DNA from: a bacterium | Lineage (GTDB): Bacteria > SZUA-79 > Acidulodesulfobacterales > Acidulodesulfobacteraceae | NCBI GenBank assembly: GCA_021812245.1 | Contig: JAKAOK010000014.1 | Span: 1-43,565, forward strand | Reading direction: 5' to 3' | Length of the DNA: 43,565 bases | In this document: positions 13,925-43,565 of the stretch, piece after piece | How positions within the stretch are numbered: the first letter of the stretch is position 1 | How the letters are laid out: every line of letters begins with the position of its first letter | Translations under genes and position numbers: made by a program | The notes under the pieces: model-generated | The model's input: the letters and a program-made list of their open reading frames with translations, nothing else | Told to the model about the DNA's origin: nothing | The model's database searches: none

Positions 13925-14170
13925 ATGGTTAAATATATAAACCTCGTTCTTTTGGTGGTCTTTGTAGCCGCAGTTTTAATTTTTACCGCAGAAAATCCCG
14001 AGCTTGTCAGCGTAAAATTTTTAGAATTCCGGTCAATCAATCTTCCTATATCGGTGATTGTATTTTCTTCTGCTATAATAGGCATTTTTATAGGCTTGAT
14101 ATACCATTTTTATACCGCTTATAAAACAAAAAGAGAACTGAAAACAAAAAACGAAAAAGAAAAATTATGA
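13925..14170 (+). CDS. LapA-domain (DUF1049) inner-membrane protein
   Basis: An 81-aa protein with two hydrophobic helices (about 5-22 and 41-61) around a short loop containing ENPELVSVKFLEF, the characteristic N-x-x-x-V-x-hydrophobic pattern of the LapA/DUF1049 family. It ends in a charged cytoplasmic tail (KTKRELKTKNEKEK). In E. coli the family member (YciS/LapA) takes part in lipopolysaccharide assembly with LapB. No LapB follows here, so the role is inferred. The ATGA overlap with the next gene suggests coupling. Confidence 0.75.
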   Translation: MVKYINLVLLVVFVAAVLIFTAENPELVSVKFLEFRSINLPISVIVFSSAIIGIFIGLIYHFYTAYKTKRELKTKNEKEKL

Positions 14171-15693
14171 CCGGTTTGGCGGAATTTGAAAAAAATTCAA
14201 TCGAACAGGCTATAACCGAAATTTTTTATAGATACGGATACGGAATACCGGCGCAGGATTTACTTAAAAAAATAGGCGTTGTTTCCGAAAATGCGGGATT
14301 CGGCGCTTTTTTAATAGGCGGCTTTCCGAGAGATATTATAATACATATTTTAAAGTCAAACCCCGAAACGTCTGATAAATTTAAATCTTCCAAAGTTTTT
14401 GAATCAAAACAGATTGCTTCGCTTGCGCTCGCAATGACAAAACAGCGCAAATTTAAATCTTCCAAAGTTTTTGAATCAAACTCCCGCTTTCTTGATTTAG
14501 ATATTGCCGTAAGAGGTTCTGCCGAAAAACTTGCCTTTTTGATAAAAGAAAAAAAAAATTTAAAATTTAAATTAAATTATTTGAAAGCGCATAAGAAATT
14601 CGGGACGGCTTCATTGGAGTTTTTAGTAAACGGTATGCCTCTTAAAATAGACCTTGCCTCCCTCAGAACCGAGGTTTATAAAAAACCCGGTATGCTGCCG
14701 GAAGTAAATACGGCAAAAACCGGACTCAAAGACGATATAAGCAGAAGAGATTTTACCATAAATACCGTCGCTTTTTCAATCAACCGCAAAGATTTCCTCA
14801 AGATTAAAGATTATTCGTCGGGAATACGCGATATATTAAATAAAAAAATAAGCGTTTTGCATGATTTAAGTTTCATTGACGACCCGACCAGAATGTTCAG
14901 GGCTGTTAGATTTGAAAAAAGGCTCGGTTTTCGAATAGGCGGCAAGACGCTAAAACTGATAAAAACCGCTTTAGATAAAAATATTTTAGACAATATTTCC
15001 GGCAAAAGAATAACGGCGGAATTATATCTTCTGTTGAAAGAGAAAAAGCCGGAGATATATTTCGAGAGGCTCGATAAATTAAATATTCTAAGCTCGGTTT
15101 ACGGCAAATTAAAATTCGGCAAAAAAAATAAAATCGTTTTTAAAAAAATTTCGGTATATTTTAACGAACCGGATAAAGCGGGCAAGATAAGAAGGGTTTG
15201 TAAAGATATAGATATTAATATGTTTTATATGGCGGAAATTTTTTACGGCTTGAGTAATTCCGAATTAAGCGAAGCGGTGAAAAGGTTAAATATGGGGCAG
15301 AAAATCGAAAAAATGTTGGAGGCGGTATATTCGGATATAAAAAAAATAAATAATTTAAAAGCAAATAATCTTTTTAATTTAAGCGTAAAAAATACGGGAA
15401 TATATGATAAACTTAATAAAATAGACGCAAAAAGCGTTTTATTTTATCTGTTCAAAGACTGCGGCAGGAACGAACCGGATTTAAATTTCAGGAAAATTAT
15501 AGTAAGATACTTAAATAAAATAATATTAATCAAGCCTTATTTGAGCGGACACGACGTTAAGTCTATGGGTATCTGCGAAGGACCGTTATGCGGCAAAATA
15601 TTGAACGAAATTAAATTATTAAAAATAGAGGGCAGGCTTAAATCCAAAAAAGACGAATTAGAATACATAAAAAAAAATTACATAAAAAATTAA
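14167..15693 (+). CDS. cca: CCA-adding enzyme / poly(A) polymerase family nucleotidyltransferase with repeat insertion
   Basis: A class II tRNA nucleotidyltransferase/poly(A) polymerase head domain is clear: IGGFPRD (50-56), the metal-binding LDLDIAV (D110, D112), KFGTASLEF, RRDFTINTVAFSI and DDPTRMFRAVRFEKRLGF. It completes or repairs tRNA 3' CCA ends, or adds poly(A). The 508 aa is long for the family. Residues 71-80 (KFKSSKVFES) recur exactly at 95-104. Between them lies a translated palindromic repeat (KQIASLALAMTKQR) matching intergenic DNA near 30040. The 72-bp duplication is in frame and falls between the GG motif and the catalytic DxD. Both tRNA-Leu genes here already encode CCA. The C-terminal half is Lys- and Asn-rich and divergent. 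Confidence 0.85.
   Translation: MTGLAEFEKNSIEQAITEIFYRYGYGIPAQDLLKKIGVVSENAGFGAFLIGGFPRDIIIHILKSNPETSDKFKSSKVFESKQIASLALAMTKQRKFKSSKVFESNSRFLDLDIAVRGSAEKLAFLIKEKKNLKFKLNYLKAHKKFGTASLEFLVNGMPLKIDLASLRTEVYKKPGMLPEVNTAKTGLKDDISRRDFTINTVAFSINRKDFLKIKDYSSGIRDILNKKISVLHDLSFIDDPTRMFRAVRFEKRLGFRIGGKTLKLIKTALDKNILDNISGKRITAELYLLLKEKKPEIYFERLDKLNILSSVYGKLKFGKKNKIVFKKISVYFNEPDKAGKIRRVCKDIDINMFYMAEIFYGLSNSELSEAVKRLNMGQKIEKMLEAVYSDIKKINNLKANNLFNLSVKNTGIYDKLNKIDAKSVLFYLFKDCGRNEPDLNFRKIIVRYLNKIILIKPYLSGHDVKSMGICEGPLCGKILNEIKLLKIEGRLKSKKDELEYIKKNYIKN
14377..14480 (+). repeat. Palindromic repeat inserted in cca, flanked by 32-bp direct repeats
   Basis: A 32-bp sequence at 14377-14408 recurs exactly at 14449-14480 (period 72 bp, 24 codons). 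The 28 bp at 14411-14438, beginning AGATTGCTTCGC and ending GCTCGCAATGAC, matches the reverse complement of 30025-30051 with one extra T. So a dispersed intergenic repeat lies inside a coding gene without breaking the frame. Confidence 0.85.
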
Positions 15694-29931: not shown

Positions 29932-29933
29932 CA

Positions 29934-30212
29934 CCCCAATCCCGGTTTAGGATTTTTATATATGGATTATCTATATATGAATTACCTGAATTACTTAATA
30001 ACGTCATTGCGAGCGCACTATTCCGTCATTGCGAGCGCAGCGAAGCAATCTCGCTTTAGATTGGTTAGCTGCGCTGGAGTTAGCTGCGCTGGACTTCGTC
30101 CGTCCCATCTTTGCCTGCATAAAACCGTTGGTTTTATAAACGCAGTCAAAGATATGCTCGCAATGACGGGTTCTTGGAATTTCTTTAAATAGCTTCTAAA
30201 CCGGTATTGGGG
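29934..30212. mobile_element. MITE-like element with 17-bp terminal inverted repeats
   Basis: CCCCAATCCCGGTTTAG (29934-29950) recurs inverted at 30196-30212 with one mismatch, bounding 279 bp with no plausible gene. Inside: a 16-bp direct repeat CGTCATTGCGAGCGCA (30002-30017, 30024-30039); an inverted copy of its first part at 30156-30169; a tandem 15-mer GTTAGCTGCGCTGGA (30064-30093); and a long imperfect hairpin (30107-30153, about 20 pairs). It fills the gap between selB and ubiD. An ORF spanning 29962-30192 is made of these repeats and I do not consider it a gene. No clear target duplication is visible. Confidence 0.7.
30025..30051. repeat. Dispersed palindromic-repeat unit shared with cca
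   Basis: This 27-bp core, GTCATTGCGAGC followed by GCAGCGAAGCAATCT, is the reverse complement of 14411-14438 inside cca except for one base. Sequences of this general type (CATTGCGAGCGAAGCGAAGCAATC) are known from memory as high-copy intergenic repeats in many bacteria. Confidence 0.8.
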
Positions 30213-43301: not shown

Positions 43302-43387
43302 TTTAATTGCGATATTTTATCCCTAATCCCGATTTAGAAAATATTTATAAGTTCTAATACTGAATAACAATGGATTCCCGCTTTCGC

Positions 43388-43437
43388 GATATTTCCGTCT
43401 GCGTTTATCAAAGCATGTCTTTGATGCAGACAGAAAT
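43388..43437. repeat. Hairpin unit, copy 1
   Basis: A 50-bp unit with an outer 12-position stem (one C-A mismatch) and an inner stem ATCAAAG/CTTTGAT around CATGT. It shares 42 of 50 bases with copy 2 at 43491-43540. Confidence 0.85.
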
Positions 43438-43490
43438 GGACACCCGTTGGGTGAAATCTTAAATCCCCATATTGTCATTCCCGCGAAAGC

Positions 43491-43540
43491 GATATTTCCA
43501 TCCGTGTTTATCGAAGCATGTCTTTGATACGGATGGAAAT
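43491..43540. repeat. Hairpin unit, copy 2
   Basis: Same 50-bp unit with a perfect 12-bp outer stem (ATTTCCATCCGT with its complement). Of eight differences from copy 1, six form three compensated base pairs and one repairs the C-A mismatch. Confidence 0.85.
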
Positions 43541-43565
43541 GCCAGAAAATAAATTCCTAAATCGG

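Follow-up and report, generated by a model that had tools for sequence, protein, structure and literature searches.

The cca gene in the DNA analysed here carries a short copied repeat between two 32-bp direct repeats, and these 32 bp are a duplicated stretch of the target, of a kind that is seen repeatedly. We consider it likely, with a probability of about three in four, that a CGTC-REP-like element inserts with a long target duplication, in which donor flanks are copied, 24–36 bp of the target are duplicated and 66–74 bp are gained. Since the same kind of event was found at other loci of the genus, we regard it as a mode of spread of this repeat. The window is the whole stretch of DNA that was analysed (43,565 nucleotides). 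Its own genome, G000, is a draft of 61 contigs that is 87% complete.

Insertion in the cca Gene

The insertion host (14167–15693, forward strand) encodes a protein of 508 aa of the CCA-adding enzyme/poly(A) polymerase family (Pfam PolyA_pol, 2e-13; PolyA_pol_RNAbd, 8.6e-07). The two copies of the duplication are located at 14377–14408 and 14449–14480 on the forward strand. They are identical at 32 of 32 positions, lie 72 bp apart from start to start, and are separated by a 40-bp insert (14409–14448). The 72-bp, 24-codon duplication with exact 32-bp repeats that was reported in the preliminary description was thus recovered in full. The net gain of 72 bp corresponds to 24 codons, so that the reading frame is still open, and the added residues lie, as described there, in the loop between GGFPRD and DLD. 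A CRISPR array comprises at least three repeats beside cas genes or a leader, whereas the cca locus has two repeats only, within a protein gene.

The top solved-structure match of the protein was 3h37_A (E 1.7e-37), a structure presumably from Thermotoga. Residues 51 and 53 of 3h37_A correspond to residues 61 and 108 of the protein in the window, which indicates that the insert is placed in a loop that is long in the PolyA_pol family. An AlphaFold2 model built with 10 sequences (mean pLDDT 64.4) was uninformative on the insert, because residues 46–107 fell below 50. The 24-residue insert is probably tolerated rather than useful, since the length of the GGFPRD–DLD loop already varies across relatives.

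Absence of the Insertion in Relatives

The cca protein was matched in 58 of the 61 genomes searched; the phylum is represented by 30 genomes in the collection used, from one family only. Loci were fetched from 29 relatives, of which 28 cover the site and one (L048) begins downstream at a contig end. The 24 residues were absent from all 28 loci spanning the site, as the alignment proposed in the preliminary description was meant to reveal. The nearest relatives, G006 and G009, with 97–99% DNA identity on both flanks, have a single copy of the 32-bp stretch and lack the insert. The 40 inserted bases were unmatched against the empty sites L040, L032, L036, L033 and L037, and the last three show the same 32-bp overlap as L040 and L032. 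The loop at this site differs in length and sequence in the remaining relatives. The cca insertion is derived.

The Repeat Core and Its Copies

The insert contains a 26-nt REP-like core, TCATTGCGAGCGCAAGCGAAGCAATC, at 14412–14437 on the reverse strand, which belongs to a CGCAAG subfamily. At one end of the core is a tag, which is TGTC in cca (TTTTGTCATTGC) and CGTC at most other copies. A second copy in the window, in a 25-nt form, is located at 30026–30050 on the forward strand. Positions 14411–14438 are, as first described, the reverse complement of 30025–30051 plus one T, which can be read from the sequence. The latter copy is present, but it is not plain intergenic DNA as had been stated: it lies within a composite element about 280 bp long (29932–30211, delimited by eye) with terminal inverted repeats, whose ends are CCCCAATCCCGGTTTAG and CTAAACCGGTATTGGGG. 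Flanks related to those of this element recur at other copies.

The 25-nt core was found with at most 3 mismatches at 49 places in G000, and a reversed-pattern control gave 0. The in-frame capture of a dispersed repeat is supported, and neither of the two outcomes named against this idea, conservation of the 24 residues in distant homologues or a lack of further core copies, occurred. Several of the copies form pairs on opposite strands with about 8 bp separating the cores. The 26-nt core was found with at most 1 mismatch at 15 places in G000, and matches were found in 10 of the 16 genomes of the genus. The exact cca core occurs elsewhere at G000:C36:20268, G006:C54:11084, G006:C87:3336, G009:C4:8893 and G026:C125:854. 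Plasmids of Novosphingobium and Methylosinus also carry the same core, as do 13 stretches of a viral collection. At a contig end in G009 (L262, G009:C32:1-400, positions 1–130), the REP is repeated in tandem every 36 bp.

The core had been called palindromic. This applies to inverted dimers of the unit elsewhere in G000, which are clear palindromes by eye. It does not apply to the single-stranded monomer unit, which showed no folding advantage over dinucleotide shuffles (z +0.9 to +1.3, 4 sequences folded). The DNA folds of the monomer gave other or shorter, interrupted stems, with ATTGC/GCAAT pairs recognisable by eye, and not the 8–9-bp stem with a 4–5-nt loop of CGTC REPs; we therefore use the name CGTC-REP-like. 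Hairpin strength was rejected as a driver for the same reason.

The palindromic sequence GTCATTCCCGCGAAAGCGGGAATC represents a second family, in which a stem of 8 bp and a loop of 4 nt are recognisable by eye; it was observed at 43332–43565 of the window and at L360, L362, L368 and L371–L374. With up to 2 mismatches allowed, it matched 10 times in the window together with a further 400 kb. The variant at the window end is located inside a composite element whose ends resemble those of the element at 30025.

The Donor-like Locus

The tract at 14403–14448 (reverse strand) resembles a locus of G006 (L107, G006:C54:11084) in 43 of 46 bases, and this tract extends past the core, by 11 nt ahead of it and by at least 6 nt behind it; BLAST gave 96% over 47 bases (14406–14452). 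This locus reads gattaGCGCTATTTTG-core-TGTTTTaaat, and the cca insert reads GCGCTGTTTTG-core-TGTTTTgat. The similarity includes the flanks, which indicates that flanking donor DNA was copied too. The moving thing is accordingly a short REP-centred tract and not a fixed element with sharp ends. A 36-bp stretch of the cca insert (14410–14445, reverse strand; query 1778–1813) is 100% identical to the insert at G009:C4:8893 (L113), and L078 and L066 have the same 12 nt before the core. A donor locus was not found in G000 itself among the matches listed, in a draft of 87% completeness.

It had been proposed that the extra T keeps the gene open. The arithmetic is correct, since 72 bp are 24 codons, but the T is no frame-saving addition. 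The 26-nt subfamily pre-exists at 15 places in G000 and occurs at the donor-like locus, so the T came with the copied DNA, and a compensating mutation is rejected. The orthologue of the donor-like locus in G010 has the 25-nt form of the core. A two-step origin, a small duplication followed by a REP insertion with an 8-bp duplication of CAAAACAG, had been suggested by the presence of CTGTTTTG on either side of the core. It was dropped because the donor-like locus shows that one copy of CTGTTTTG is donor flank and that the other arises where donor flank meets target.

Long Direct Repeats at Other Copies

The REP copies of the genus were sampled, leaving out the 25-nt copies of G007, G009, G011 and G015 and part of those of G012. 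The loci fetched form 147 REP clusters, namely 53 single copies, defined by no other REP end within 100 bp, and 94 multiples. Flanking direct repeats were scored against a null of flank pairs taken from different copies. A score of at least 15 was reached by 8 of the 53 singles, compared with 0.36% of the null (binomial 2e-11; 1e-9 without cca), and by 1 of the 94 multiples, where the repeat is internal to a composite. The other 45 singles are without long-duplication flanks. In the inverted-sense control, 6/53 singles and 29/94 multiples scored at least 15; these scores are ascribed to the inverted ends of composite elements, which were seen only in part.

Five of the 17 singles in G000 have flanking direct repeats with scores of 16.5–32, whereas the null reaches 14.0 at its 99th percentile and 20 at most. 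The cca flanks reach 32, and the two weakest, L084 and L089, correspond to null fractions of 0.7% and 1.1%. All four singles with an unaltered CGCAAG core (L076, which is cca, L078, L113 and L122) are among the eight; the fifth, L155, with an altered end, is not. Outside the genus, 23 copies (13 viral-collection loci, 4 plasmid loci) gave one score of at least 12, from a tandem repeat, so that the evidence for the long duplication is confined to this genus.

Empty Sites

For each event, the nearest relative read gave the overlap between the two flanks and the length of the unmatched insert. At cca (L076), the overlap is 32 bp and the insert 40 bp. The other overlaps and inserts are 34 and 40 bp (36 by eye) at L078, 31 and 36 bp at L006, 33 and 36 bp at L084, 33 and 33 bp at L089 (22 and 38 in other relatives), 35 and 31 bp at L122, and 24 and 48 bp at L113. 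The start-to-start distances are 72 bp at cca and L113, 74 bp at L078, 69 bp at L006, L084 and L089, and 66 bp at L122. At 7/7 loci with an empty site, the net gain was thus 66–74 bp, on average 70.1 bp (sd 2.7), from lengths read manually. The filled arrangement at these loci was seen in three drafts (G000, G006 and G009), and the empty sites in others. The objection that 32 bp is too long for a target duplication therefore does not hold, since such duplications recur, with empty sites, at other copies of the repeat.

The empty-site loci were picked for their direct repeats, save seven loci and six loci, so the seven cases are not a rate. L193, with a 17-bp repeat and a relative without a clean single copy, is a probable further case. 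L066 gained 39 bp with an overlap of just 3 bp, despite having 12 nt before the core as in L078, and L062 suggests a gain of about 25 bp without duplication. No long duplication was found at the empty sites of L061, L117 and L083, which are composite or messy. L117 was rejected as a case, because its repeat sits inside a 179-bp composite insertion with a 4-bp overlap. L102 and L099 are common to the relatives and have no empty site, L014 is composite, and L019 and L073 were uninformative.

Specificity to the REP

An ungapped scan for spaced repeats with a period of 45–90 was run on 443,565 bases of G000, comprising the window and 400 kb more, or roughly a quarter of the genome. Four loci scored at least 14: cca (32 bp), the second palindromic family (20 bp) and two loci without a REP (20 and 17 bp). 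Repeats of more than 20 bp were present only at cca, which was also the sole locus with a REP core, and no other comparable ungapped scar was found in these bases. Beyond the REP loci, a scan of the 653,839 bases fetched returned CRISPR arrays, coding repeats in other genera, a 33-bp repeat at L061 and the repeat at the window end.

The near-exact 33-bp repeat at L061 (G000:C61:31800-33800, positions 1022–1121) has 34 bp between its copies and adjoins a REP cluster, with no REP between the copies; at this site, G006 is without a 149-bp stretch and has no overlap. One CRISPR array of G000 (L069, G000:C36:2400-4400, positions 1018–2001; 36–37-nt repeat, period 72–74) starts a few nt past a REP.

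In-Frame Copies in Other Genes

In-frame REP copies were found in the ORFs of four conserved genes: cca, a Na+/H+ exchanger, a GT2 glycosyltransferase and a HycI protease. Two of them are long-duplication cases, cca with +72 bp and the exchanger with +69 bp. REP-derived peptides are present in the glycosyltransferase of G000 and G006 and on the N-terminal side of the protease of G015. The exchanger insertion is shared by G003, where further REPs accompany it, and by G026, which is placed in another genus. The G026 locus (L280, G026:C125) carries the same REP insertion and flanking repeats as L084 and L106, in drafts of different genera; this would mean either that the insertion is old or that the contig was misbinned. 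In the most economical view, insertions that keep the frame and fall in loops survive, and selection then retains the in-frame cases.

Proposed Mechanism of Insertion

A short DNA centred on the CGTC-REP-like repeat was copied into cca; it comprises the 26-nt core with donor flank at both ends, about 11 nt at one and a few nt at the other. The target was cut or copied such that the 32 bp came to lie on both sides of the insert. The long duplication implies either that the target strands were separated 24–36 bp from each other or that a polymerase went back upstream over the same distance. We favour a staggered break of roughly 30 bp, which would have been filled in around the short REP fragment. 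Simple slippage, which the preliminary description had considered, leaves the copied donor flanks unexplained.

The competing explanation that survives best, although we consider it improbable, is template switching during replication. A nascent strand would copy 31–48 nt at a REP locus and return upstream, and the re-copied stretch would be duplicated with no special enzyme. The donor flanks copied together with the core fit this explanation, as does the complex arrangement at L061. In cca, the donor flank on the right shares 3 nt (TTT) with the beginning of the duplicated target, and the overlap at L089 is TG, but the junction overlaps are short and inconsistent. Moreover, the net gains are narrowly spread (66–74 bp), and non-REP sequence would also be expected among the inserts of a generic process, of which none was found in 443,565 bases.

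The absence of generic non-REP insertions in these bases also speaks against a Cas1-type integrase, which we regard as unlikely. Here, a REP fragment would be joined to both ends of a repeat-length target by ectopic spacer-like integration, duplicating the target. The measures are similar: the inserts of 31–48 bp, duplications of 24–36 bp and net gains of 66–74 bp compare with CRISPR periods of 72–74 bp (G000:C36) and 66 bp (G006:C48). The difference from CRISPR spacer acquisition is that each insertion is a single event with two repeats, no array and no leader, and that the cargo is always a REP. Off-target spacer acquisition has reportedly been studied in E. coli. The duplication length varies, which is unlike one fixed integrase, and the core was in no spacer of the G000 and G006 array stretches viewed by eye.

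In G000, Cas1 lies beside a PrimPol (a match to an 'adaptation polymerase' model; TOTE-type), Cas6 and a CARF/Csx1 protein (L266, G000:C52:1-6000). The role of polymerases of this kind in adaptation is taken up in PMC8211822. Long-duplication singles number 7/28 in Cas1-positive genomes and 1/25 in the others (Fisher p 0.053, confounded by the kinship of G000, G006 and G009). Cas1 was found in 6 of the 16 genomes of the genus, including the REP-free G004 and G014, and was not found in the REP-rich G001 and G012 (both 91% complete). A broader proposal, slightly less likely still, is that the genus spreads its REPs by the Cas1 complex, perhaps with the neighbouring primase-polymerase, which would place REP-centred fragments at off-target sites of repeat length with 24–36-bp duplications and a 66–74-bp period. 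If this were true, the transposase-less CGTC REPs would gain a mobiliser.

A Y1/RAYT-type transposase, as with GTAG-tagged REPs, is very unlikely to have made the insertions, even though the single Y1_Tnp gene of G000 lies about 1 kb from the REP inside a neighbouring glycosyltransferase gene. Y1_Tnp is present in 9/16 genomes of the genus, including the REP-free G002, G004, G005 and G014, and is unrelated to copy number; it was not found in G006, G009, G010 and G012, which have 21, 10, 8 and 28 REP copies. Elements of the IS200/IS605 type make no larger target duplications, according to PMC2817692. Neither the Y1 transposase nor Cas1 was retained as a driver, since their genome distributions do not fit. 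An assembly artefact or strain mixture in this metagenome-assembled genome is the least probable explanation: G000 is a 61-contig draft whose junctions are known from the assembly alone, but both cca junctions are locus-specific, seven loci in three drafts are alike with empty sites in others, and the cca frame is kept.

Comparison with Known Repeats

The preferred reading, insertion of a CGTC-REP-like element with a long target duplication, has partial parallels. The CGTC-tagged REPs include RPE-6 and RPE-4, according to Di Nocera et al. 2013 (PMC3733652). They are described there as having a CGTC/TGTC tag with A-T rich first pairs after it and a high copy number, with inverted dimers and with intragenic positions for some of the copies, all as here. 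No dedicated transposase has been recognised for them; G000 has the one Y1_Tnp gene about 1 kb from a REP, while Y1_Tnp presence and copy number do not match in the 16 genomes. Their 8–9-bp stem was not seen in the monomer fold. The words 'duplication', 'direct repeat' and 'target site' are absent from the main text of that paper (0 occurrences). In the literature searched, with the primary RPE and YPAL papers outside its scope, we found no account of CGTC REPs with long target duplications.

The rickettsial palindromic elements were a fair precedent to cite, in that the relevant passages of PMC2229807 and PMC10969869 describe a mobile repeat read in frame inside conserved genes, with a similar outcome. 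These elements are about 105–150 bp long in Rickettsia, whereas the insert in cca is 40 bp, with a unit of about 36–43 bp, in an unrelated organism. Their target duplication is entered as '?' in the review PMC2229807, whereas that of the present repeat is shown here. The YPAL/RU-2 element of Yersinia, in the same review, also makes variable target duplications (3–26 bp, by empty and filled sites), but it is an enterobacterial element of 168 bp, compared with duplications of 24–36 bp and a unit of 36–48 bp here. The GTAG REPs mobilised by RAYT share the short imperfect palindromes and dimers, as described in PMC2817692. They differ in their tag and in a transposase family that makes no larger target duplication, and the GTAG tag was found at none of the REP copies listed in the genus.

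The CGTC-tagged REPs, including some RPEs, have so far lacked a known means of movement (PMC3733652), and the fresh insertions described here, whose empty sites can be read, reveal features of the process. Three of them, the copied donor flanks, the 24–36 bp duplicated and the 66–74 bp gained, make the mode of spread testable. In cca, the insertion is a case of a protein gaining 24 residues in one step.
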